Shown here piece by piece: positions 11,034 through 41,208 of a stretch of DNA of 41,208 bases. The stretch spans positions 1 to 41,208 of the forward strand of contig NZ_FNWU01000014.1 in the NCBI RefSeq assembly GCF_900108505.1, given 5' to 3'. The notes beneath the pieces are model-generated. The model made no database searches and was not told where the DNA came from. It saw nothing but the letters and a program-made list of their open reading frames with translations. The position numbers and the translations under genes were made by a program. This DNA is from Halopenitus malekzadehii (GTDB lineage Archaea > Halobacteriota > Halobacteria > Halobacteriales > Haloferacaceae). Numbering within the stretch: the stretch's first letter is position 1; each line of letters starts with the position of its first letter.

Positions 11034-11339
11034 TCAGTCCTCGGACCGCGGTGCCAACACGAGCAGCGCGGTGCTGTCGGCCCTGGCGACCGGCGAGATC
11101 TCCCGATCCCCGTCGAAGCGGGCGACATCGCCGGGTTCGAGCTCGTGGATCTCGCCGTCGAGGTGCAGATCGATCGCGCCCGACAGGAGATACGCCACGA
11201 TCTCCCGGTCGGGATGGCGGTGCGGATCCACGCGCTCGCCAGACTCGAGCTGCAGCCGGATCGTCTTCGGCTCGGCACTCGGGAAGGCGTTCGCGTGGGG
11301 AACGCCCTCGAGGTCTGCGAGGGACCGGACGGTGGCCAT
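11034..11339 (-). CDS. Small cupin-domain protein
   Basis: A 101-residue single-domain cupin. The first metal motif reads as DPHRHPDREIVAYLLSG (residues about 38-54), with H40, H42 and E46 as likely metal ligands. The second motif (LEPGDVARFDG) keeps the glycine-proline turn but has no clear third histidine. Together with the next upstream gene it forms a tandem cupin pair separated by 3 bases, so the two products may act together, for example as a heteromeric pirin-like or sensor protein. The function is unknown. Confidence 0.82.
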   Translation of the reverse strand: MATVRSLADLEGVPHANAFPSAEPKTIRLQLESGERVDPHRHPDREIVAYLLSGAIDLHLDGEIHELEPGDVARFDGDREISPVARADSTALLVLAPRSED

Positions 11340-11342
11340 CGG

Positions 11343-11762
11343 TCACCGCCCCCCGTCGGCGCCGCGATCCGCCGTGTCCGCATCCTCGCTGTCGGGGTCG
11401 AACTCGCCACGTTTGAGCCCGCGCCGAACCGGCTCGTGTTCCGCGTCGGTCGGCGGCGGCGCCGTCACCAACAGCGCCTCGAGACGACCGTCCTCGTCGG
11501 CACGGATCCCGCGGTCGACGTCCGCCTCGACCGCGACGACGTCGCCGGGCTCGACGCGATGCTCGCGGTCGCCCTCCCGAACGATCCCGGTCCCCGACCG
11601 AACCCGCACCACGAGATCGCTGCTCGGCGCGTGGACGGGGATGAACTGGCCGGGCTCGAAGAAGCCGCAGACGACCTTGACACGCTCCGTCCGGAACGCA
11701 CCCCGGGCGCTGAACCGCGACTCGTCGTACTCCCGTTCGGCGTCGAAGTCGATCGCCGGCAT
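11343..11762 (-). CDS. Cupin-like protein
   Basis: A 139-residue protein with a cupin core: FFEPGQFIPVHAPSSDLVVRV (residues about 34-54), then a second conserved turn VEPGDVVAVEADVDRGIRA. Of the usual histidine ligands only H44 is evident, so metal binding is doubtful. The C-terminal 35 residues are acidic and disordered. Start: ATG at 11762, where the family-like sequence begins; the reading frame is open further upstream, but there it covers the divergent promoter region. It is followed after 3 bases by the small cupin gene, so they form an operon. Confidence 0.78.
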   Translation of the reverse strand: MPAIDFDAEREYDESRFSARGAFRTERVKVVCGFFEPGQFIPVHAPSSDLVVRVRSGTGIVREGDREHRVEPGDVVAVEADVDRGIRADEDGRLEALLVTAPPPTDAEHEPVRRGLKRGEFDPDSEDADTADRGADGGR

Positions 11763-12003
11763 ACTCACCGCCCTCCGTCCGCATTGCCGACGCTCGATAC
11801 CCGATCCCGCCGATAGCCACGATCGATCGACACACATCCTGTCTGCATACGGTCGATCGAACGAACCGTGCTTGGGTGTGGGTTTACCCGAATATGTTTC
11901 GCCGTCGCCGCACGGGGCGTTTTGATATCGCGAGATACAATTTATCCTCGACGCTACGGGGAAACGAGCAACCATTAAGCGACACGAGTCACAACCGGCG
12001 CGT

Positions 12004-12897: not shown

Positions 12898-12913
12898 TTT
12901 AGGCAGCCCTAAA
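12898..12913. promoter_or_regulatory. Palindrome TTTAGG-CAGC-CCTAAA, probable DtxR/IdeR-type metal operator
   Basis: A perfect inverted repeat with 6-base arms and a 4-base spacer, ending 13 bases before the RGP-family start codon. The half-sites TTAGG/CCTAA are those of DtxR/IdeR-family iron or manganese regulators. The same half-sites with the same spacing recur at 14125-14140. Binding is inferred. Confidence 0.7.
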
Positions 12914-12926
12914 GAGACGGGGATGA

Positions 12927-14105
12927 ATGACTCAGGACATCTGCGTCGTGGTCCCGACGATCCGGGAGTACGAGTGTATGCGGACGTACTTCGAGAACGC
13001 GCGCGACAACGGGTTCGACCTCTCGCGACTCCACGTCGTGCTCGTGACCGAGGACTTCTGTGAGACGGACGCGATGGCGTCGATGCTCGAGGACGAGGGC
13101 GTCTCCGGCGAGGTCTTCGACGGGACGCGTCGCCAGGAGTGGTACGAGGAGAACGGGATCGCCGAGTACGGCCACCTCGTGCCGGCTGCCAGCCACGCCG
13201 AGACGAGCTTCGGTCTGCTGTACATGTGGGCCCACGACCGCTTCGAGTACGGCTTCTTCATCGATGACGACACGCTGCCGGAGCCCGAAGACGACTTCTT
13301 CGGCCGCCACATGGAGAACCTCGCGTTCGAGGGCGAGGTGGAGTCGGTGTCCTCCTCGGAGGACTGGGTGAACGTGCTCCACCAGAACGCCGACGAACAC
13401 GGACTCTATCCGCGCGGGTACCCCTACGCGGCGATGGACGAGACGGTCGAGACGTCGACGGAGACGGTCGACGACGTGGTCGCGTCCCAGGGGCTGTGGA
13501 CCAACGTCCCCGACCTCGACGCGGTCCGGATCCTGATGGACGGCGACCTGCAAGGACAGGCGCAGACGCGAACGAGTCGGTCGGACTTCACCGGCGACTT
13601 CGTCGCGGCCGAGGGCAACTACCTCACCGTCTGTTCGATGAACCTCGCGTTCAAGCGGGAGGTCATCCCGGCGTTCTACCAGCTGCCGATGGACGACAAC
13701 GAGTGGGACGTCGGTCGATTCGACGACATCTGGAGCGGCGTGTTCCTCAAGCGAGCCTGCGACGTGCTCGGAACGACGATCTACAACGGCTACCCGTTGT
13801 GTGAACACAACAAGGCGCCGCGGTCGACCTTCGACGACCTGACGAACGAGGTCGCCGGTCTCGAGCTCAACGAACACCTCTACGAGATCATCGACGACGT
13901 CGGCGGCGACGCCGATACCTACGCGGACGTCTTCGCGGCGATGGGTCGGGAACTCGCCGAGGGCGACTACGAATCGTACAACAACGGCGCGTTCTTCAAC
14001 CACGTTGGCGAACATATGTGTGAGTGGCTCGACTGCCTCGAGACACTCAACGGCCTCGAGGGCGTGAGCCGGTCGCGGGACGCGCGGACGGCGGCGGGGA
14101 ACTGA
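12927..14105 (+). CDS. RGP-family (UDP-arabinopyranose mutase/glucan-protein synthase-like) protein
   Basis: A 392-residue soluble protein that resembles the reversibly glycosylated polypeptide family, best known from plants as UDP-arabinopyranose mutases and self-glycosylating glycosyltransferases. Support comes from the N-terminal CVVVPTIREYECM strand-loop, the nucleotide-sugar/metal motif FFIDDDTLPEPEDDFF (DDD at 113-115) and YPRGYPYA at about 161-168, which matches the family's arginine-containing active-site loop. The C-terminal KAPRSTFDDLTNE region is also consistent. The start codon lies 13 bases after the metal-operator palindrome. The gene ends 38 bases before the iron-binding lipoprotein gene. 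A role in sugar modification under metal control is inferred; the substrate is unknown. Confidence 0.82.
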   Translation: MTQDICVVVPTIREYECMRTYFENARDNGFDLSRLHVVLVTEDFCETDAMASMLEDEGVSGEVFDGTRRQEWYEENGIAEYGHLVPAASHAETSFGLLYMWAHDRFEYGFFIDDDTLPEPEDDFFGRHMENLAFEGEVESVSSSEDWVNVLHQNADEHGLYPRGYPYAAMDETVETSTETVDDVVASQGLWTNVPDLDAVRILMDGDLQGQAQTRTSRSDFTGDFVAAEGNYLTVCSMNLAFKREVIPAFYQLPMDDNEWDVGRFDDIWSGVFLKRACDVLGTTIYNGYPLCEHNKAPRSTFDDLTNEVAGLELNEHLYEIIDDVGGDADTYADVFAAMGRELAEGDYESYNNGAFFNHVGEHMCEWLDCLETLNGLEGVSRSRDARTAAGN

Positions 14106-14114
14106 ACCGACGGG

Positions 14115-14120
14115 TATATA
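14115..14120 (+). promoter_or_regulatory. TATA box of the iron-binding lipoprotein gene
   Basis: The sequence tatata lies 24-29 bases before the ATG at 14144, which fits a leaderless transcript starting at or next to the start codon. The metal operator fills the space between this box and the start. Confidence 0.75.
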
Positions 14121-14123
14121 TTG

Positions 14124-14141
14124 TTTTAGGTAAACCTAAAA
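14124..14141. promoter_or_regulatory. Palindrome TTTTAGG-TAAA-CCTAAAA, probable DtxR/IdeR-type metal operator
   Basis: An 18-bp perfect inverted repeat directly between the TATA box and the start codon, 2 bases before the ATG. A protein bound here would block transcription start, as expected for iron-dependent repression. The inner 16 bases share both half-sites and spacer length with the palindrome at 12898-12913. Confidence 0.8.
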
Positions 14142-14143
14142 AT

Positions 14144-15370
14144 ATGGCCGACGACTCCATCGACGGACGAGACGACGATCGACGGACCGCGACGGATTCA
14201 CAGCGATCGACGGATCGACGGCGGTTCCTCGCGAGCGCCGGCACGCTGGCCGCAGTCGGGATCGCCGGCTGTACGGGGAACGGCGGCGGCAACGGGAACG
14301 GAAACGGGAACGGAAACGGGAACGGCAATGGGAACGGCAACGGCGGCGGCAACGGCGACACCGATCCCGGCTCCGACGTCGGACAGATCGGATCCGGACG
14401 GGCGGGACGTGACGCACCCGGCGGCACGCCGATGGCGGAGATGCCCGATCTCGAGGGTGAACTCACCGTCTACTCCGGTCGTGGGGAGTTCCTCGTCGGG
14501 GAGATCGTGAGTTACATCGACGACCTGTACGACGACTTCGATCTGACCGTTCGGTACGGCGGATCGACCGACCTCGTCAACCAGATCGCCAACGAGGGCG
14601 CCGGGACGCCGGCCGACGTCTTCTACTCGGTCAACGCCGGGTCGCTCGGCGCGCTCGCGGACGCGGGCCACGCCGCGTCCCTCTCGAGCGATCTAACCGA
14701 CCTCGTGCGCGGCGAGTTCCACACGGAGAACTGGATCGGGACGTCCGGGCGCGCCCGAACGGTCCCGTACAACACGAACGCCCTCTCGGAGGGAGACCTC
14801 CCGGACGACATCATGGCGTATCCCGAGGAGTTCGACGGGGACCTCGGCTGGGCACCGCGGTACGGTTCCTGTCAGGCGTTCGTCACCGCGATGCGGATCA
14901 TCGAGGGCGAGGAGGCGACCCGCGAGTGGCTCCAGGGCGTCCTCGACGCCGGCATCCAGGAGTATCCCGACGAGTTCGCCGCCTGCCAGGCGATCGCCGA
15001 CGGCGAGATCGACGCCGCGTTCACGAACCACTACTACATCCAGCGCGTCCTCGACGGGAACCCCGGGGCGCCGATCGCGACCGCCTTCACCGAGGGCGAC
15101 GCGGGCGCCGTCTTCAACGTCGCCGGCGCGGCGGTCGTCGAGGCGACCGACGAGGCGACGCTGGCCGAGAACTTCATCCGCCACCTGCTGTCGGCGGAGG
15201 CACAGGACTACTTCGCACGGTCGACCTTCGAGTACCCGCTGATCCCGGACGTCGATCCGATCGGCGATCTGCCCACGATCGACGAACTCGACGTGCCGGA
15301 CATCGACCTCGCCCAGCTGTCGAACCTCGAAGAAACGGTCGACCTGATGCGCGACGTGGGCGCGCTCTAA
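14144..15370 (+). CDS. Iron(III)-binding ABC transporter lipoprotein (FbpA/FutA type)
   Basis: A 408-residue extracytoplasmic binding protein. It has a twin-arginine signal (RRRFLASAG, residues 25-33), a lipobox IAGC with the cysteine at 43, and a long (GN)n linker at about 45-70. The mature part is a type II binding fold beginning ELTVYSGRGEFLVG. The motif TNHYYIQR (Y297 and Y298) matches the tandem tyrosines that bind ferric iron in FbpA and FutA. No permease or ATPase gene is adjacent, so it must use components from elsewhere. The in-frame upstream sequence to 14024 lies inside the previous gene; the ATG at 14144 sits correctly behind the TATA box. Iron repression is inferred from the operator. 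Confidence 0.9.
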   Translation: MADDSIDGRDDDRRTATDSQRSTDRRRFLASAGTLAAVGIAGCTGNGGGNGNGNGNGNGNGNGNGNGGGNGDTDPGSDVGQIGSGRAGRDAPGGTPMAEMPDLEGELTVYSGRGEFLVGEIVSYIDDLYDDFDLTVRYGGSTDLVNQIANEGAGTPADVFYSVNAGSLGALADAGHAASLSSDLTDLVRGEFHTENWIGTSGRARTVPYNTNALSEGDLPDDIMAYPEEFDGDLGWAPRYGSCQAFVTAMRIIEGEEATREWLQGVLDAGIQEYPDEFAACQAIADGEIDAAFTNHYYIQRVLDGNPGAPIATAFTEGDAGAVFNVAGAAVVEATDEATLAENFIRHLLSAEAQDYFARSTFEYPLIPDVDPIGDLPTIDELDVPDIDLAQLSNLEETVDLMRDVGAL

Positions 15371-15385
15371 GGACGAACCGTCGCC

Positions 15386-17665
15386 GTGCCGGACCGGGTT
15401 CGCTCCGCGATCGGACGTGTTCGCCGCAGGGTCCAGCGGCGGCTCCGATCACGGATCCGCCGCACGCCCCCAGAAACCCTTGCGGCGCTCGGCGTCGCGG
15501 CGATCGCCGGGATCGCGGTGTTCGTCGTGGCGATGACCGTCTTCGCGTATCACTCGAGCAACCACGACGAGGGCGTCTACCTCCAACAGGCCGCGATGCT
15601 GCTCGAGGGGCAGCTCGCGCTGTATCCCGGCGAGTTGGCCGACGCGTTCCATCCATGGTTCTTCATCGAGGACGGCGACCGGCTCTACCCCAAATACACC
15701 CCGGTGCCGGCCGCGATGTACGCGGTCGCGATGGCGCTGGTCGGCGAGCCGCGGGTCACCCTCGCGGCCATCGCCGCGGCGAACGTCTTCCTCGTCTACC
15801 GACTCGGATCGATGGTCGCGGATCGCCGCGTCGGGCTCGTCGCGGCGGTCGCCTTCGCCGCGGCACCGATGGCGCTCGTGACGACTTCGGTCTTCCTCCC
15901 GTACGCGCCGACAGCGGCGTTGAACCTCCTGTTCATCGTCTCGTATCTGCGCGGCGTTCGGGACGGATCGCTCCGGTGGGCCGGCGTCGCCGGGCTCGCG
16001 ATCGGGCTCGCGTTCTTCGCGCGTCCCTATACGGCGGTGTCGGTTGCCGCACCGTTCGTTCTGCACGCACTGGTGACGACCCTTCGGGCGACCGGCCGGG
16101 GGACGCTGGCGACGGCGCGGTCGAACGTCGTCGATCTTCCCGATCCGATCCGACGGAACCTGCTCACCGGCGCGCTCGGGCTCCTGTTCGTCGGCGTCAC
16201 GCTCGCGTACAACCGGGTGCTGACCGGGTCGCCGCTCGTCTTCCCGTATCAGGTGTTCGCCCCGCTCGACGGTCCCGGGTTCGGACGCCGACGGATCCTC
16301 GGACACTCGATCGAGTACACGCCGGAGCTGGCGCTTGAAGCGAACCGGCACGTCGTCGAGTATCTGCTCACACGGTGGATGACCGCGGGCGGGATCGGGA
16401 GCGCGGCGGCGCTTGCGGGGGTCGCGATCGCGGCGCGCCGGTGGGTCGCTTCGACGTCCGGAGACGGAGTTCGCCGGACCGCGGGCGGCCTGCTGGCGGG
16501 CGTCCTCGTGACCGTCCCGCTCGCGAACCTCGCGTTCTGGGGGAACTACAACGTCCTCGGGGAGATGGGCGATCCGACGGAGGGACTGATCGCGGTGATC
16601 GGTCCCATCTACTACTTCGACCTCCTCGTGCCGCTGTCCGTCTTTGCGGCCCTCGCCGCCGTCGTCGGCTGGCGCCGACTGTCCGACCGGGCGGCCGCCC
16701 GAGCCGCACGGTTCGATCGTCGAGACGCGGACCGTGCAGCTCGCGCCGTCCGCGTGCTCGCGATCGGAGCGGCGGTGATCGGCCTGGTGCTTGCGGGCTC
16801 GGTCACGGCCTCGCTCGTGTCCGAACCGCTGGAGCGGAGCGCGACACAGACCGAGAAGTACGAGGCAGCCTACGAACCGATCGAGTCGACCACGTTCGAG
16901 GACGACCTCGTCTTCGTTCCGACGCCATACGGCGATTGGCAGAACCATCCCTTCCAGTATCTCCGGAACGACCCCGGCTTTGACGGGCCGGTGGTGTACG
17001 CACTCGATCGCGATCCGGTGGCGGACTTCACCGTGATCGACGCGTACCCGGACCGCGAGTACCACCGGTTCACCTACCAGGGCGAGTGGACCGCGGACCC
17101 CGATCAGCACGTGAGGCCGAAACTCGAGGCGCTCGACGTCCATCGCGGATCCACGCTCACGGCGCGGACGACCGTCGGCGTCCCCGACCGCGTCTCCCGG
17201 GCACGGGTTCGGCTCTCGAGCGAGACGGGAGAGTCGGCGTATCTCGGATACGGGATCGCCGATCCCGGGGAGTCGATGACGGTCAACTGGCGACTGACGC
17301 CTGAAGGGGTCGAACTCCCCGGTGCTGAAGCCGCCGGCGCCGAACCCACGGATTCCGGCTCGGAGATGATCCCGATCGGCGACGACGCCGAGTCGGTCGT
17401 GCTCACGATCACGCTGGTCCAACCCGACGGGGGCACACTCACGTACCGCCAGGAGGCGACGGTTCGTCCCGCCGAGGCCGGGACGGCCGGCGATGACGCC
17501 GGTGAGGAGACGACCGACGCCGCCGTCGAGGCGATCTGGCCGCCGGAACGGTCCGTCTGTACGCTCGTTCGGGAGTGCGGCACGGACGGGACGTACATCC
17601 CCGACGATCCGGACGCACACCTCGACGGTGTGAACTTCGAGACGACCGTCAGAGCCACCGAGTGA
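15386..17665 (+). CDS. GT-C-fold membrane glycosyltransferase (ArnT/PMT-like)
   Basis: A 759-residue polytopic protein. After a basic N-terminus the first membrane helix (about 31-53) leads into SSNHDEGVYLQQAA, where D61-E62 occupy the position of the catalytic acidic pair in the first outer loop of GT-C enzymes, which use lipid-linked sugars. About ten further hydrophobic segments follow to about residue 475. The last 280 residues form an outer domain with beta-rich segments. It starts with GTG only 15 bases after the iron-binding gene, so the two are probably co-transcribed. The acceptor may be a protein or lipid on the cell surface; nothing in the sequence says which. Confidence 0.85.
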   Translation: MPDRVRSAIGRVRRRVQRRLRSRIRRTPPETLAALGVAAIAGIAVFVVAMTVFAYHSSNHDEGVYLQQAAMLLEGQLALYPGELADAFHPWFFIEDGDRLYPKYTPVPAAMYAVAMALVGEPRVTLAAIAAANVFLVYRLGSMVADRRVGLVAAVAFAAAPMALVTTSVFLPYAPTAALNLLFIVSYLRGVRDGSLRWAGVAGLAIGLAFFARPYTAVSVAAPFVLHALVTTLRATGRGTLATARSNVVDLPDPIRRNLLTGALGLLFVGVTLAYNRVLTGSPLVFPYQVFAPLDGPGFGRRRILGHSIEYTPELALEANRHVVEYLLTRWMTAGGIGSAAALAGVAIAARRWVASTSGDGVRRTAGGLLAGVLVTVPLANLAFWGNYNVLGEMGDPTEGLIAVIGPIYYFDLLVPLSVFAALAAVVGWRRLSDRAAARAARFDRRDADRAARAVRVLAIGAAVIGLVLAGSVTASLVSEPLERSATQTEKYEAAYEPIESTTFEDDLVFVPTPYGDWQNHPFQYLRNDPGFDGPVVYALDRDPVADFTVIDAYPDREYHRFTYQGEWTADPDQHVRPKLEALDVHRGSTLTARTTVGVPDRVSRARVRLSSETGESAYLGYGIADPGESMTVNWRLTPEGVELPGAEAAGAEPTDSGSEMIPIGDDAESVVLTITLVQPDGGTLTYRQEATVRPAEAGTAGDDAGEETTDAAVEAIWPPERSVCTLVRECGTDGTYIPDDPDAHLDGVNFETTVRATE

Positions 17666-22726: not shown

Positions 22727-24004
22727 ATGGAGCGACAGGAAGGGTACGCCTTCGACGTCGAGTCGGTTCGAGCGGACTTCCCGATCCTGGACCGGCGGGT
22801 GGGCGGCGATCCCACGACGCCCGGCGAGGGACCGGAGGACGACACGCCGCTCGTCTACCTCGACAACGCGGCGACGACGCACACGCCGGACCCGGTGGTC
22901 GACGCGATCGCCGACTACTACCGCGGCTACAACGCGAACGTGCATCGGGGCATCCATCAGCTGAGCCAGGAGGCCTCCGTCGCCTACGAGGAGGCCCACG
23001 ACCGCGTCGCCGAGTTCATCGGCGCTGACGGCCGCGAGGAGATCGTGTTCACGAAGAACACGACCGAGGCGGAGAACCTCGTCGCACACGCCTGGGGACT
23101 CCGGGAGCTCGGCCCCGAGGACAGCGTCGTCCTCACCGAGATGGAACACCACTCCTCGCTCGTCACCTGGCAGCAGGTCGGCAAGCGGACCGGCGCCGAC
23201 GTCCGGTTCATCGCCGTCGAGGAGGACGGAACGCTCGATATGGACCACGCCGCCGAGTGCATCGACGACTCGACGGCGATGGTCTCGGCGGTCCACGTCT
23301 CGAACGCGCTCGGGACGATCAACCCGATCCGCGAGCTGGCCGACCTCGCCCACGACCACGACGCATACCTCTTCGTCGACGGTGCCCAGTCGGTGCCGAC
23401 GCGACCGGTCGACGTCGGGGATCTGGGCGCCGACTTCCTCGCGTTCTCGGCCCACAAGATGTGTGGCCCGACCGGGATCGGCGCGCTCTACGGTCGGAAG
23501 GAACTGCTCGACGCGATGGAGCCCTTCCTGTACGGCGGGGACATGATCCGCCGGGTGACCTACGAGGAGTCAACCTGGGAGGACCTCCCCTGGAAGTTCG
23601 AGGCGGGCACCCCGAGCATCGCCCAGGGGATCGCCTTCGCGGCCGCCGTCGACTACGTCGACGACATCGGGATGGAGCACGTCCGCGCCCACGAGGACCT
23701 GCTTGCGGCCTACGCTCACGAGCGTCTCAGCGAGCTCGACGACGTGACGGTTTACGGGCCGCCGGGCGACCGTCGGGGCGGGCTCGTCTCGTTCAACGTC
23801 GAGGGCGTCCACGCCCACGACCTCTCGAGCATCCTCAACGACTTCGGCGTCGCGATCCGGGCGGGCGACCACTGTACCCAGCCGCTCCACGATAAGTTGG
23901 GCGCGGCCGCAAGCGCCCGCGCGTCCTTTTACGTCTACAACACCGTCGAGGAGGTCGACGCGCTGATCGACGCCGTCGACGAGGCGCGCGAGCTGTTCGC
24001 CTGA
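22727..24004 (+). CDS. sufS: Cysteine desulfurase SufS (group II)
   Basis: A PLP-dependent enzyme, 425 residues, that takes sulfur from L-cysteine and passes it on for Fe-S cluster assembly. The PLP lysine is K244 in the motif AFSAHKMCGPTG. The active-site cysteine is C383 in RAGDHCTQPLH, the short group II loop. YLDNAATTHTP (44-54) and the MEHHSS motif (139-144) are also as expected. An acidic insertion near residues 27-40 lengthens the N-terminus slightly. It is followed by sufU after 98 bp on the same strand; SufU is the usual sulfur acceptor of such enzymes. Confidence 0.96.
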   Translation: MERQEGYAFDVESVRADFPILDRRVGGDPTTPGEGPEDDTPLVYLDNAATTHTPDPVVDAIADYYRGYNANVHRGIHQLSQEASVAYEEAHDRVAEFIGADGREEIVFTKNTTEAENLVAHAWGLRELGPEDSVVLTEMEHHSSLVTWQQVGKRTGADVRFIAVEEDGTLDMDHAAECIDDSTAMVSAVHVSNALGTINPIRELADLAHDHDAYLFVDGAQSVPTRPVDVGDLGADFLAFSAHKMCGPTGIGALYGRKELLDAMEPFLYGGDMIRRVTYEESTWEDLPWKFEAGTPSIAQGIAFAAAVDYVDDIGMEHVRAHEDLLAAYAHERLSELDDVTVYGPPGDRRGGLVSFNVEGVHAHDLSSILNDFGVAIRAGDHCTQPLHDKLGAAASARASFYVYNTVEEVDALIDAVDEARELFA

Positions 24005-24102
24005 GCGGGACGGGCCACTGGAAGCAGTCTCACGCCGATATGGCGCGGTGAACGCCCCGCTGCGGAACGCTTTTCCCGGCGAGCCGGCTACCCAGAAGCA
24101 GT

Positions 24103-24522
24103 ATGGGACTGGGCTCGGACATGTACAGACAGCAGATCCTCGATCACTACAAGAACCCCCGTAATTACGGGGAGATGGAGGATCCGGACGTCACGCACGT
24201 CGGCGAGAACCCCTCCTGCGGGGACACCATCCGGATGGACATCCGGCTCGCCGACGACGACGAGACGATCGAGGCCGTCGCCTTCACCGGCGACGGCTGT
24301 GCCATCTCGATGGCCTCGGCCAGCATGCTCTCCGAGCGGCTCGCCGGGATGACGATCGCGGAGCTCGAGGCGCTCGGTACCGACGACATCACCGAAATGC
24401 TCGGCGTCGACATCTCGCCGATGCGCGTGAAATGCGCCGTGCTGGGCCGGCAGGTCGCCCAGGACGGGGTGAAGATCGAGCGCGGCGAGATCGACGTGGA
24501 TCGGACGAAGACCGAGGATTGA
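24103..24522 (+). CDS. sufU: SufU-type sulfur acceptor/scaffold protein
   Basis: A 139-residue IscU-fold protein that accepts persulfide sulfur from SufS. The three conserved cysteines are in place: C39 in PSCGDT (with D41), C66 in GDGCAIS and C111 in RVKCAVL. It is typical of SufU in having an Arg/Lys rather than His next to the third cysteine. The N-terminus MYRQQILDHYKNPRNYG is strongly conserved. ATG at 24103; a second ATG at residue 7 is also possible. It follows sufS closely, so the pair forms a functional sulfur-transfer unit. Confidence 0.95.
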   Translation: MGLGSDMYRQQILDHYKNPRNYGEMEDPDVTHVGENPSCGDTIRMDIRLADDDETIEAVAFTGDGCAISMASASMLSERLAGMTIAELEALGTDDITEMLGVDISPMRVKCAVLGRQVAQDGVKIERGEIDVDRTKTED

Positions 24523-24615
24523 GCCGGCCCCGTCCCACCGACGGGACCGAACCACCCCTTCCGCCGAGCGGTCGAGCCCGCCGAACTTTTGCGGATCGAC
24601 GCCCTCTCACCAACC

Positions 24616-25449
24616 ATGAGCGACGAGTTCGACAAGGAGGCCGAACGCGAGAAGCTTCGGGAGAAGTTCGAGCGGGACCGCGAGAAGCGCGAACACACCC
24701 AGCACATGTCGGAGCTGCTGTTGAAGGGTGCAACGATGACCAACAGCCACTGTGACGCCTGCGGGGATCCGATCTTCAGACACAACGGCCAGGAGTTCTG
24801 CCCGACGTGCTCGCGTGAAGGGACCGCGAACGCGGCCGCTGCCGACGCGACCGGCGCTGATGCGGCCGATGCTGCGGCGGGTGATGCTGATGCGGCCGAT
24901 GCTGCGGCGGGTGATGCTGATGCGGCCGATGCTGCGGCGGGTGATGCTGATGCGGCCGACGCTGCGGCGATCGACCCGTCCGGCGGTCGATCACCCGACC
25001 GAACCGCTTCCGGGACGGAAACGGGGAACTCCCCGACCGAGATCGATATCGACGACGACGGAGCGACTGGAACCGCCGAACCGGCTGCCGAGAACGGAAC
25101 CGCCTCGGCCGGTGGGTCTGCAACCGGCGCGGGGAGCGAGATCGACGCCGCGGCGAGTGGTTCCACTTCCGCACCGACGGACGTCACGCCGACCGCCGGC
25201 ACGCCTGGGAACGTCGCGCCGAACGACTCGACACGGAACGCTGCGGCAGCGACCGCCGCGGACACGACATCGTCCACGGCGAGCGCCGACACGCCCACCG
25301 AGGACCTCCACGCGGCCCGCGAGTCGCTGGCCCGAACGGTGCGCCGGTTCGCCGAGGCCGCCGAGGGAACCGACGATCCCCGCCGTGCTCGCGAACGGCT
25401 GCAGGCGGTCCGTGAGGCCGCGGAGGCGCTCGACGCGCTGGATCGGTAG
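24616..25449 (+). CDS. SSSCA1/UPF0148 zinc protein with long Ala/Asp-rich linker
   Basis: A 277-residue protein. The N-terminal 70 residues are a long charged helix (EREKLREKFERDREKREHTQ, residues about 9-28) followed by a zinc ribbon CDACGDPIFRHNGQEFCPTC, with the MSELLLKGATM segment between them. This is the signature of the Sjogren's syndrome/scleroderma autoantigen 1 family (UPF0148), whose archaeal function is unknown. Residues about 73-225 are low-complexity, beginning with 3.8 copies of a 10-residue Ala/Asp repeat. The last 50 residues form a helical domain. The ATG at 24616 is used because the family begins there. Located 93 bp after sufU, possibly by chance. Confidence 0.85.
   Translation: MSDEFDKEAEREKLREKFERDREKREHTQHMSELLLKGATMTNSHCDACGDPIFRHNGQEFCPTCSREGTANAAAADATGADAADAAAGDADAADAAAGDADAADAAAGDADAADAAAIDPSGGRSPDRTASGTETGNSPTEIDIDDDGATGTAEPAAENGTASAGGSATGAGSEIDAAASGSTSAPTDVTPTAGTPGNVAPNDSTRNAAAATAADTTSSTASADTPTEDLHAARESLARTVRRFAEAAEGTDDPRRARERLQAVREAAEALDALDR
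24856..24969 (+). repeat. 30-bp tandem repeat, 3.8 copies
   Basis: The unit gctgatgcggccgatgctgc + ggcgggtgat is repeated at 24856, 24886, 24916 and 24946 (the last partial), with almost no change. It encodes ADAADAAAGD in the linker of the zinc protein. Exact identity at synonymous sites suggests recent slippage. Confidence 0.92.
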
Positions 25450-36402: not shown

Positions 36403-36498
36403 TCGTCCACCGACGATTCACGCCACGGCGTGGTCGCGACTCCACAACACGACTGCGACTCCACAACGCACTTACCCCGCTCGCTCACACGGTTCAGT

Positions 36499-37923
<1,425 letters not shown>

Positions 37924-37964
37924 CGTCCGTCGCCCGACGTCGCCCGAGGCAGTTCCCCACCGCC

Positions 37965-38729
37965 CTAGAGTCCGGTCGGGTGTGAGACGTACGTCGTCTC
38001 CAGACCCCACTCCTCGAGCCGCTCTTGGACCGCCCGTACGCCGAACGTCTCGGTGGCGTAGTGGCCGGCCAGACAGACCGAAATCCCGGCCTCACGCGCC
38101 TCGTGATAGATCTGCTGTTTCCCTTCACCGGTGACGAGCACGTCCGCGCCACGATCGACGGCCTCATCGAGCCAGTCGGCGCCGGAACCGGTCACGATCG
38201 CGACGCGCTCGACCGCCTCGGGACCGAACGGGAGGACCTGCACGGGACGCTGACGCCCCTCGAACTCCTCGAGCCGCTCCGCTACCGTCCCGACGTCGAT
38301 TGGCTCCGGAAGCTCGCCGATCGTGCCGATCGTGACGGGACCGAGCTCGCCGAAGGGCTTCCGGTCGGCGACGCCGAGCGCCTCGGCCACCCCGGCCGCG
38401 TTGCCGAGCGCCGGATGCCCGTCCAGCGGGAGGTGTGAGACGTACAGTGCGACGTCATTCTCGACGAGCGCGGCGATCCGGTCGTAGGTCCGGCCGGTCA
38501 CGTGCTCGATACCGCCCCAGGAGATCCCGTGATGGGTCACGAGGACGTCGGCGCCGGCGTCGCCAGCCGTCTCGATCGTCGCGTCCGCGGCGTCGACGGC
38601 GACCGCGACGTGCTCGACGGACGACTCCTCGGGACCGACCTGGAGGCCGTTCGCGCTCGCGTCCACGTCGGCGTACGCCGCCGTCGAGAGCGTCTCGTCA
38701 AGCCTGTCGGCGAGCGTGGTGAGTTCCAT
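37965..38729 (-). CDS. Nif3-like dinuclear metal protein (YbgI/DUF34)
   Basis: A 254-residue member of the Nif3/DUF34 family, which forms hexamers with a two-metal site. Ligands visible are H66-H67 in VTHHGISW, D103-type SHLPLDGHP (about 97-105) and the C-terminal GHYATETFGV (about 221-230). Members have been linked to GTP cyclohydrolase or metal-insertion roles, but the reaction is unsettled. The ATG at 38729 is supported by a TATA box 24-32 bases upstream. It is 93 bp downstream of hemA on the same strand and could belong to the heme operon. Confidence 0.93.
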   Translation of the reverse strand: MELTTLADRLDETLSTAAYADVDASANGLQVGPEESSVEHVAVAVDAADATIETAGDAGADVLVTHHGISWGGIEHVTGRTYDRIAALVENDVALYVSHLPLDGHPALGNAAGVAEALGVADRKPFGELGPVTIGTIGELPEPIDVGTVAERLEEFEGRQRPVQVLPFGPEAVERVAIVTGSGADWLDEAVDRGADVLVTGEGKQQIYHEAREAGISVCLAGHYATETFGVRAVQERLEEWGLETTYVSHPTGL

Positions 38730-38752
38730 ATGTTCGGATCCGCAATACGGCG

Positions 38753-38761
38753 AATTAAAAA
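38753..38761 (-). promoter_or_regulatory. TATA box of the Nif3-like gene
   Basis: Minus-strand TTTTTAATT centred about 28 bases before the ATG at 38729. It supports an own leaderless promoter inside the hemA-nif3 gap. Confidence 0.6.
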
Positions 38762-38822
38762 CGGCGAAGGGAAACTCGACGCCGTCGAGGACGGCACGCC
38801 GAGGACGGAACACCGATGGTGG

Positions 38823-40172
38823 TCAGTCCGAGACCTCGTTGTGGACGCCGTCGGACCGCCCCTCGTGACTCCCACCTGCGTCCGGTGACTGGGTCCCGTT
38901 GCCCGTGGCGGCACCGTCTGACGGAGGCGCGTCGAACTCCGGATCGAACAGCTGCATCGCGGTCTGGATCGTCGTTAGGTCGTCCTCGCCTGCGGCCTCT
39001 CGCAACGACTTCGTCGGGGCGGCGAGCAGCTGGCCGACGAGCGCGTCCGCAAGCGCCTCGACCGTCTCGCGCTGCTCCGCGGTCAGCCCGCCCTGTGCGT
39101 CGAGCTTCGTGAGCGCCTTCTCGAGCTCGCGTGCCTTGACCCGGTCGGCGGACTCGTACATCGACGCGATCGCATCGTCGGCGCGGCGGCGCTTGAACGA
39201 CTCCAGCAACCGGTCGAGTTCCTCGTCGATCATCTCCTCGACCGCGCGCGCCTCGGCCTCCCGCTGCTCGCGGGTGCGGCTGGTGACCGACTCCAGCGCG
39301 TCGATGTCGTACAGCGTGACGGCGTCGACTGACTCGACCGCCGGATCGACGTCCCGTGGGCGAGCGATGTCGACACAGACCATCTCGCCGGCGTCCGTGA
39401 GGTCCGCGGGGTCGACGAGCGGCTCCGGGCTCCCGGTGGCCGTGACGAGGAGATCGGCCCGCGGAAGCACGCGGGCGAGGTCGGCGAGCGCGATCGCGGT
39501 CGCGTCCGTGTCGACCTCCGCCGCGACGTACTCGGCGTGAGGGATCGTCCGGTTTGCAACGTGGATCTGCGAGACGCCGGTGTCGTCGAGCGCCCTGGCG
39601 GCGAGGGTGCCCATCTCGCCGGCTCCGACGACCAGCGCGGTCGCGTCCGCCAGGTCCAGCCGGCGATCGGCCAGATCGACGGCGGCCGATCCCAGCGAGA
39701 CGACGCCCTCGTTGATCGCCGTCTCGGTGCGCGCGCGCTCGCCGACGTGGATCGCCTTCGTGATCGCGTCCTCGAGGACCGGGCCGATCCCCCCGGCCGC
39801 CCGCGCGGCCTCGAAGGACTCCCGAACCTGGCCGATGATCTGGTCCTCGCCGATCACGAGCGACTCGAGACCCGCCGCGACCCGCATCAGGTGGCGAAGG
39901 CTCTCCTCGTGGGCGAGTCGTTGGATCGCACCGTCACGGACGTCGGGCGCGAACGACTCGAGCGCGTCGTAGCCGTGGGCGACTCGATCGGTGACGACGT
40001 ACGCCTCGGACCGGTTGCACGTCCGTATCGCGAACGCCTCATCGACGCCCGGCCGCGCGAGGAGGTCGGAGACGGTTCCGCGAGCCGACTCCGCCCCGGC
40101 GGCGTTGATCTCGTCGATGCTTGCACTCGCGTGTGAAACGCTTATTCCGGTGAGTACTCCCGTCTGGTTCAT
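38823..40172 (-). CDS. hemA: Glutamyl-tRNA reductase
   Basis: The first enzyme of C5 tetrapyrrole synthesis: NADPH-dependent reduction of glutamyl-tRNA to glutamate-1-semialdehyde. The catalytic cysteine is C52 in RTCNRSEAY. ESLVIGEDQIIGQVR (103-117) is the family signature, and the NADPH site is VVGAGEMGTLAARAL (181-195). The dimerisation helices lie after residue 300. The last 45 residues are an acidic, Gly-rich tail. The start overlaps the sirC stop by 4 bases (ATGA). Length 449, within the family range. Confidence 0.96.
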   Translation of the reverse strand: MNQTGVLTGISVSHASASIDEINAAGAESARGTVSDLLARPGVDEAFAIRTCNRSEAYVVTDRVAHGYDALESFAPDVRDGAIQRLAHEESLRHLMRVAAGLESLVIGEDQIIGQVRESFEAARAAGGIGPVLEDAITKAIHVGERARTETAINEGVVSLGSAAVDLADRRLDLADATALVVGAGEMGTLAARALDDTGVSQIHVANRTIPHAEYVAAEVDTDATAIALADLARVLPRADLLVTATGSPEPLVDPADLTDAGEMVCVDIARPRDVDPAVESVDAVTLYDIDALESVTSRTREQREAEARAVEEMIDEELDRLLESFKRRRADDAIASMYESADRVKARELEKALTKLDAQGGLTAEQRETVEALADALVGQLLAAPTKSLREAAGEDDLTTIQTAMQLFDPEFDAPPSDGAATGNGTQSPDAGGSHEGRSDGVHNEVSD

Positions 40173-40906
40173 TGTCCCTCCGACGTGTCTCCGGGGTCGT
40201 CTGCGTGGTCCCGAACGCGTTCGACGATCCCGTCCGCCAGTTGTCGGGGGTTCGTCTCCCCCGTTTGTAAACCCTTCTGAACGGCCGGCGATCGGACGAC
40301 CGATCGGACGGCCTCACGACGGGTCTCGGGATCGACGTCCCGGTCGATCAGATCCATGCGAACGTCCCCGACGAGCCGTGCGAGGTCGCCGATGCCGTCG
40401 AATTCGGCCTCGATGCGCTCGCGGAGGTACCGCGACACCGCGGGGCTGGTTGCCCCCGTCGTGATCGCGAACGTCACCGGCCCGTCCTCGACCGTGGCCG
40501 GGACGACGACGCTTCCCGGATCGCGGCCGCCCGACACGTCCGTGCGATTGATCAGGACTCCGCGATCGCGCGCTGCCGCCTCCGTCGCGGCATTGATCGC
40601 CGGATCGTCCGTGGCAGCGACCACGAGTGCAGGTTCGGCGCGGTCGATCAATGCCGCGACGTCGTCGGGTTCGAGGCGCTGGCGAACCAGTTCGATCCGT
40701 CCGCCATCGGTTTCGGTCGTGGTTCCGGCATCCCGCCCGTCCTCAGTAGCCCGTCCGTCCGCCGACCGGAGCCGGTCGGTGAACGTCGGGCTTACGACGA
40801 TCACGGACGCTTCGGCCGCGAACCTCCGGGCCTTGCGAGTCGCGACGGCGCCGCCGCCGACGACGAGGACGGTCTCCCCGGCGAAGTCGTGAACGAGCGG
40901 GATCAC
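40169..40906 (-). CDS. sirC: Precorrin-2 dehydrogenase/sirohydrochlorin ferrochelatase-type (SirC/Met8)
   Basis: A 245-residue enzyme that oxidises precorrin-2 to sirohydrochlorin with NAD+, for siroheme. The NAD site VLVVGGGAVATRKAR lies at about 14-28, and the domain continues with LVVAATDDPAINA and the conserved NRTDV segment. TFAITTGATSPAVSRYLRERIE is the conserved CysG/Met8 dimer motif. A loop of about 25 extra residues (after SADGRATEDGR) is acidic and variable. The GTG at 40906 (MIPLVHDFAGE) overlaps the ahbB stop as GTGA and matches haloarchaeal relatives, so it is preferred over the ATG at 41002 inside ahbB. Confidence 0.93.
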   Translation of the reverse strand: MIPLVHDFAGETVLVVGGGAVATRKARRFAAEASVIVVSPTFTDRLRSADGRATEDGRDAGTTTETDGGRIELVRQRLEPDDVAALIDRAEPALVVAATDDPAINAATEAAARDRGVLINRTDVSGGRDPGSVVVPATVEDGPVTFAITTGATSPAVSRYLRERIEAEFDGIGDLARLVGDVRMDLIDRDVDPETRREAVRSVVRSPAVQKGLQTGETNPRQLADGIVERVRDHADDPGDTSEGQ

Positions 40907-41208
40907 GTCGACGAGCGTTGTGACGACGTGTTTCCGTCCGCACGTTCCGCGATCCGGATCCCCGTCTTCTTGAGGATACGCGTCGAGAACAGGGTGTCCC
41001 AATCGGACGGCTCGACGTCCCAGTACTCGTTCATCGTCTCGGCAACCTCGGCGATCCGGCGTTCGCTTTCCGCCTCGCTGCGCCCGTGAGTCATCGCAAA
41101 GAAGTTGTACTCCCAGACACCCTCGTGGCGCGGCCGTTCATAACAGTGCGTGACGAAGTCCATCCCGGCCACGGCCGGCCCGACCTCCGAGAGGACGTCC
41201 TCGGGAAC
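40903..41208 (-). CDS. ahbB: Siroheme decarboxylase subunit AhbB, C-terminal part
   Basis: The C-terminal 101 residues of an AhbB-like protein; the frame continues past the right edge of the window. Siroheme decarboxylase (AhbA/AhbB) removes two carboxyl groups to give 12,18-didecarboxysiroheme in the archaeal heme route. The motif VTHCYERPRHEGVWEYNFFAMTHG is diagnostic (shown by H-C-Y-E-R-P and the Y-N-F-F-A-M-T-H-G strand). The protein has an Lrp/AsnC-like fold. It overlaps sirC by 4 bases, and sirC overlaps hemA by 4 bases, so all three are translated as a unit. Confidence 0.93.
   Translation of the reverse strand, partial: VPEDVLSEVGPAVAGMDFVTHCYERPRHEGVWEYNFFAMTHGRSEAESERRIAEVAETMNEYWDVEPSDWDTLFSTRILKKTGIRIAERADGNTSSQRSST

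Follow-up and report, generated by a model that had tools for sequence, protein, structure and literature searches.

Haloarchaeal RGP-family sugar genes share a conserved operator-like palindrome with FbpABC-type iron import genes

Haloarchaeal DtxR-type iron regulons, FbpABC importers, GT75 mutases, and dolichyl-phosphate (DolP)-sugar pathways are all known. Idr1 and Idr2 are DtxR-family iron regulators of Halobacterium, and the 'ferR' signal of haloarchaeal DtxR-family regulons was reportedly described by Leyn and Rodionov in 2015. The AglD/AglR/AglS-type DolP-mannose route is part of N-glycosylation in Haloferax volcanii. To our knowledge, few organisms produce furanose sugars by a route that does not use an FAD mutase. 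The fhu genes of Hfx. volcanii have been reported to carry the 'ferR' iron-regulon signal (PMC11349517). GT75 enzymes are Mn2+ dependent; in the mutase MtdL, the counterpart of Arg163 is self-glycosylated, and Asp87 touches C4/C6 of the sugar and is needed for mutase activity (PMC9937993).

Here, we describe a locus in a stretch of 41,208 nucleotides from Halopenitus malekzadehii (contig NZ_FNWU01000014.1, positions 1 to 41,208 of the forward strand), the whole of which is referred to below as the window. DtxR-type regulators and a shared signal before siderophore transport genes are common to the Idr1/Idr2 and 'ferR' regulons and to the system described here, which adds to them a glycosylation trio (RGP, GT2, and GT39 with DUF7846) as a conserved member set. 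The YYxxR motif of FbpA, a BPD-type permease, and a TOBE ATPase are shared with the ferric ABC importers FbpABC/FutABC, but here the importer shares both its control and its location with a glycosylation pathway, and the genes for its three components are dispersed over the genome that contains the window. With the GT75 mutases MtdL (acting on GDP-sugars), Hyg20, and plant UAM/RGP, the RGP protein has in common the DDD motif, the self-glycosylated arginine position, and the Mn2+-binding histidine; it differs in its low identity (~25%), in a histidine (His90) that replaces Asp87 of MtdL in every haloarchaeal member, and in its genomic setting beside an iron importer rather than in antibiotic or cell-wall synthesis. 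The AglD/AglR/AglS route follows the same logic, in which a sugar is charged on DolP, flipped, and moved by a membrane GT-C enzyme, but other genes, iron-type control, and a probable furanose donor distinguish the present system. Within the literature covered, the conserved union of regulon, importer, GT75 enzyme, and DolP pathway appears to be new; searches for papers on haloarchaea that connect RGP with either iron or galactofuranose returned nothing relevant.

Palindromes in the window and in its genome

The RGP/GT75-family protein (392 aa, probable NDP-pyranose/furanose mutase) is encoded at 12927..14105 (+), and an FbpA-type ferric-iron-binding lipoprotein (408 aa) at 14144..15370 (+), with start codons at 12927 and 14144. 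Operator 1, TTTAGGcagcCCTAAA, is an exact match to TTTAGG-N4-CCTAAA at 12898..12913 (not assigned to a strand), 13 bases 5' of the RGP ATG. Operator 2, TTTAGGtaaaCCTAAA, also exact and without strand, occupies 14125..14140 between the lipoprotein ATG and the TATA box of this gene (TATATATT, 14115..14122, +), which stands directly 5' of it. Both operators lie no more than about 30 bases from the start codons, a placement suited to blocking the TATA box or the start of transcription. The original prediction had correctly recognized the half-sites TTTAGG/CCTAAA with a common 4-base spacer at both gene starts, the position of the second site between TATA box and ATG, and the identity of both genes, which is borne out by matches to PF03214 (E about 1e-18) and to a ferric-binding protein. 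Its coordinates for operator 1 stand, and the 14124-14141 given for the second site correspond to the core plus one T/A pair. The next gene, at 15386-17665, encodes a GT39 glycosyltransferase and is part of the same unit, which had been overlooked.

No further match to the palindrome was found in the window with up to three mismatches allowed. The base-composition model predicts 0.00025 exact sites for the window, where two were found, and 0.02 for the genome (3.14 Mb), where 11 were found as against 0 for a reversed control pattern. Across 20 genomes (the window's own and relatives), 129 exact palindromes were counted vs. 2 for the reversed control. In 1.0 Mb of orthologous loci, the spacer of 4 occurred in 217 sites, spacers of 0-3 and 5-9 in none, and the reversed-control motif was absent. 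A chance palindrome is ruled out by these genome, relatives, and spacer controls.

Regulon sites in the window's genome were taken as exact 16-mers or the 14-base core. The motif is present upstream of siderophore-binding protein genes (C24 and C27:889 kb, the latter with a FecCD-like permease and an ATPase), of the gene for FbpC, an iron-type ABC ATPase (C27:1039651), of the FbpB permease gene, which is divergent from a gluconate-2-DH3/GMC pair (C29:3435), and of the glycosyltransferase GT2 gene (site C29:5736; gene C29:5784-6659). On C6 it also precedes a DUF5059-plastocyanin lipoprotein gene, on C26 an HTH gene, and on C24 a gene that lies 39 bases 3' of the one for a 134-aa DtxR-like regulator (C24:5374-5778). 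FbpA (window), FbpB (C29), and FbpC (C27) are thus dispersed components of a single importer that share the operator. Iron is the likeliest signal, as the motif marks siderophore and FbpABC import genes. Judged from the sequences, the palindromes are very probably operators of a haloarchaeal DtxR-type iron regulon, for which regulator binding and a response to Fe2+ are predicted. The shared metal-type operator and its membership in a genome-wide iron-uptake regulon thus have strong comparative support (11 vs. 0; 129 vs. 2). As originally stated, the window contains no DtxR-like gene; candidates are located elsewhere in the genome, at C27:652473 and C27:453014, with a weaker match at C24:5557 flanked by operators. 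Genes resembling those for Fe-S cluster assembly (SufS/IscU-like) and for haem or sirohaem synthesis are present in the window at 22727-25449 and 36430-41172, without the operator.

In the proteome of iron-starved Hfx. volcanii, RGP, FbpA, and GT39 proteins are missing from Table 1, which covers proteins changed at least 10-fold (PMC11349517). The same proteome gives increases for HVO_1859 (UPF0104, 11.6-fold) and HVO_0655 (GalE family, 12.7-fold) (PMC11349517); neither could be assigned to the sugar module.

Conservation of sites, gene order, and gene content

A search of 84,980 genomes yielded 158 RGP relatives, of which the best 80, ranked by similarity to the query and spanning over 20 haloarchaeal genera, were analysed. 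Among these best 80 of 158, the palindrome 5' of RGP was exact in 72, had one mismatch in 7, and two mismatches in 1. It was exact 5' of 69 of 79 FbpA orthologues, with one mismatch in 2 more. A lack of conservation before the two genes had been named beforehand as an outcome that would refute the idea; sites with at most one mismatch were found at 79/80 RGP and 71/79 FbpA genes, so the idea withstood this check. At the same stringency, the palindrome preceded the GT2 gene in 28/29 cases and the upstream flippase-like gene (LPG_synthase_TM) in 36/39, and was absent before the operon-internal genes for GT39 (0/74) and FbpC (0/19). The RGP and GT2 sites of Haloferax read TTTTGG-N4-CCTAAA. As to gene order, in the same best 80 of 158 loci, fbpA was located directly 3' of RGP in 79 and GT39 within 6 kb in 74.

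On the Salarchaeum plasmid pJOR178 and on a Halobaculum plasmid, the genes run in the order RGP, binding protein, iron permease, ATPase, and a large protein, the last annotated as GT39 in Salarchaeum and as hypothetical in Halobaculum. Genes for gluconate-2-DH3 and GMC adjoin the RGP-importer cluster on both plasmids. Exact operators precede the RGP, binding protein, and dehydrogenase genes of pJOR178, and one-mismatch sites precede the RGP and dehydrogenase genes of the Halobaculum plasmid.

Presence was called in 242 haloarchaeal genomes with PF03214 for RGP, PF25230 for DUF7846, and E-value cut-offs of <=1e-60 for GT2, 1e-120 for GMC, and 1e-25 for FbpA. RGP, DUF7846, and GT2 were each found in 196 genomes, the same 196 for all three, and the same 46 genomes were without any of them. 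This argues that the sugar enzymes need each other, and the trio probably constitutes one pathway. The distribution of a secreted GMC sugar dehydrogenase almost coincides with that of the trio (190/196 trio genomes, 2/46 others). Relatives of FbpA occurred in 233 of the 242 genomes, so the importer does not depend on the sugar genes; the trio without importer was found in one exception at the FbpA cut-off of 1e-25, genome G182. Presence of the trio differs within genera g2, g4, g31, g39, and g42, which indicates that it was gained or lost jointly several times. Among 14 control genomes, only Hfx. volcanii holds RGP and DUF7846. The notion that RGP is a mere passenger of fbpA was rejected in view of its own conserved operator and its perfect co-occurrence with two other sugar enzymes. 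The suggestion that iron uptake involves surface-glycan chemistry is strengthened by the perfect co-occurrence, under iron-box control, of a GT75 mutase homologue with the DolP-hexose transferase and the GT39 enzyme.

A dedicated flippase-like (LPG_synthase_TM) partner was rejected for Haloferax, where only fused GT2+TM proteins matched, without operator; the flippase is thus not a universal member of the module. In one Natrinema-like locus (L027:3658-4587) and 14 similar ones, a gene for a GalE-like NDP-sugar epimerase is located 5' of the flippase-like and RGP genes and may point to the sugar made. A pair of cupin genes stands beside the RGP unit in the window (11034-11975 (-)). On C6, a close paralogue of one cupin (L012:4150-4551) is situated between two operators, directly before the gene for the DUF5059-plastocyanin lipoprotein (L012:4681-7170). 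This lipoprotein of 829 aa, with DUF5059 (E 1e-216), a plastocyanin-like domain, and the same operator, is a candidate redox or metal partner.

RGP and its partner proteins

RGP matches PF03214 with 67.8 bits (cut-off 23.8; E 1.2e-18), and members of this orphan family are annotated 'alpha-1,4-glucan-protein synthase' in most haloarchaea. Among proteins of solved structure, MtdL (E 3e-24) and rice UAM2 come closest to it. The AlphaFold model (mean pLDDT 82, pTM 0.86) superimposed on MtdL with Z 36 and rmsd 2.7 over 350 residues, and on UAM2 with Z 27 (Foldseek, VIA-align); further Foldseek matches were other GT-A glycosyltransferases with Z <=14.4. The DDD motif (D113-D115), R163, D196, and D267 are invariant in 81 RGP sequences, and R264 and H294 in alignment A1. 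RGP thereby keeps the MtdL residues shown to be important, namely those at the DDD, Arg163, Asp196, Arg264, Asp267, and His294 positions (PMC9937993). These include the nucleophilic Arg, an Asp that serves as general base, and the His that binds Mn. His90, His294, and the cysteines C6, C45, C236, and C292 are likewise invariant.

The sugar-contacting Asp87 of MtdL is absent from RGP, its position being taken by His90 in 81/81 sequences; Gln229 of MtdL corresponds to Met238. With these replacements, the reaction of RGP may differ from that of MtdL, and in view of His90 we do not claim an active mutase of the MtdL kind. One may speculate from the alignment that the change of charge at His90 points to another sugar, perhaps an acidic one. 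For the product itself, we lean slightly towards a furanose. Prediction of nucleotide specificity was dropped because the signature is mixed: the position of MtdL Thr13 is apparently Pro10 (plant-like), and Ser86 corresponds to Ser89 (MtdL-like). As no signal peptide is evident, RGP is probably cytoplasmic. One haloarchaeon (L103, G010:C2:1525556-1526527) has a second RGP that closely resembles the plant type, which scores 452 bits vs. ~60-70 for the iron-linked subfamily and adjoins other glycosyltransferase-like genes; it is a possible archaeal UDP-arabinopyranose mutase.

The lipoprotein resembles the ferric-binding protein 7w3w (E 3e-57), and both its lipobox and its NxYYxxR motif are conserved in 78/79 orthologues. 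Fifteen bases 3' of its stop codon begins the gene for a GT39/PMT-type membrane glycosyltransferase of 759 aa (15386..17665, +) with a C-terminal DUF7846 domain (PF25230, E 6e-48); the match of its PMT_2 core to PF13231 is marginal (27.9 bits vs. cut-off 26.1). The GT2 partner passes NCBIfam NF041391 (dolichyl-phosphate hexose transferase) with 408 bits at a cut-off of 375. It thus belongs with the NF041391/HVO_1613-type DolP hexose transferases, from which it differs in its control by the iron box and its association with GT75 and GT39 partners. HVO_1613, described as a DolP glycosyltransferase outside N-glycosylation (PMC9943897), is related to it and likely its orthologue. The gluconate-2-DH3/GMC dehydrogenase pair (L018:3456-5710, on C29) has its own operator and might act either in oxidation of the glycan or as a reductase of Fe(III).

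Proposed pathway and rival explanations

Operators, site conservation, gene order, co-occurrence, and enzyme families form the basis of our model; from them we infer the identity of the repressor, the iron signal, the furanose product, the lipid-linked route, the acceptor, and the benefit. On balance, we favor a lipid-linked, probably furanose-based glycosylation pathway that would be repressed by iron and serve FbpABC iron uptake. Against this reading count the missing RGP, FbpA, and GT39 entries in Table 1 of PMC11349517, the wider spread of FbpA relatives (233 of 242 genomes), and the His90 and Met238 replacements in RGP. In the presence of iron, the small DtxR-like repressor would sit on the operators, cover the TATA/start region, and block transcription start; in its absence, the FbpABC importer and the sugar pathway would be made together. 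RGP would convert an NDP-pyranose to an NDP-furanose, GT2 (C29:5784-6659) would load the sugar on dolichyl phosphate, and the flippase-like protein, in species having that gene, would turn the DolP-sugar outward. GT39-DUF7846 (15386-17665) would then transfer the sugar to an outside acceptor, which may be a glycan of the surface or else FbpA or further proteins exposed there, and the exported GMC/gluconate-dehydrogenase-type enzyme may oxidise the glycosylation product. The product could help to capture Fe(III) or to pass it on, or could shield the exposed importer. A direct contribution of the sugar pathway to iron capture is proposed tentatively. We are more doubtful of a siderophore-like route, in which a lipid-linked furanose glycan induced by iron starvation, possibly acidic or oxidised and made by a new GT75 subfamily marked by His90, would capture Fe(III) and feed FbpABC.

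The trio might instead belong to a general low-iron response of the envelope, for instance one that remodels the S-layer or exopolysaccharide or leads to biofilms, and share the regulon without a direct role in uptake. FbpA is found without the trio (233 vs. 196 genomes), the genes for GT2 and the dehydrogenase are not neighbours of fbpA in the window's genome, and the description of HVO_1613 as outside N-glycosylation (PMC9943897) leaves room for other surface products. The position of RGP directly 5' of fbpA in 79 of the best 80 of 158 loci, with GT39 within 6 kb in 74, and the single Salarchaeum pJOR178 cluster, where genes for the importer are intermingled with those for trio members and the dehydrogenase, speak against such a response, which we hold to be unlikely, if a little less so than the siderophore-like route.

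The two remaining explanations concern the metal. Manganese, sensed by an MntR-like regulator, could be the signal, given that RGP-type enzymes need Mn2+, as GT75 enzymes do (PMC9937993), and that the small DtxR-like protein matches MntR models, albeit weakly and far under their cut-offs. But the genes of the regulon in the window's genome are those for ferric binding and for siderophore-type and FbpBC transport, FbpA is homologous to ferric-binding proteins, and the 'ferR' signal at the Hfx. volcanii fhu genes is reported as one of an iron regulon (PMC11349517), which together make manganese improbable. Less probable still is the original suggestion of a role for RGP itself in binding or storing ferric iron. 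Iron-type control and the invariant His90, His294, C6, C45, C236, and C292 would suit such a function; yet in its predicted fold and in the residues of its metal site RGP corresponds to the Mn2+/NDP-sugar mutase MtdL, its partners in the trio act on sugars, and the protein is probably cytoplasmic, so that this suggestion is not supported.

The favored reading, iron-repressed glycosylation serving FbpABC, yields predictions that are directly testable in Haloferax volcanii, which has genetic tools and holds RGP and DUF7846. Iron-regulated furanose-making outside plants and antibiotic producers would apparently be new. If true, the RGP orphan family, the DUF7846 glycosyltransferases, and a DolP-hexose transferase with an unexplained product would acquire a role, and archaeal surface glycosylation would be linked to metal nutrition. 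These data suggest that cell-surface sugar chemistry helps haloarchaea when iron is scarce.
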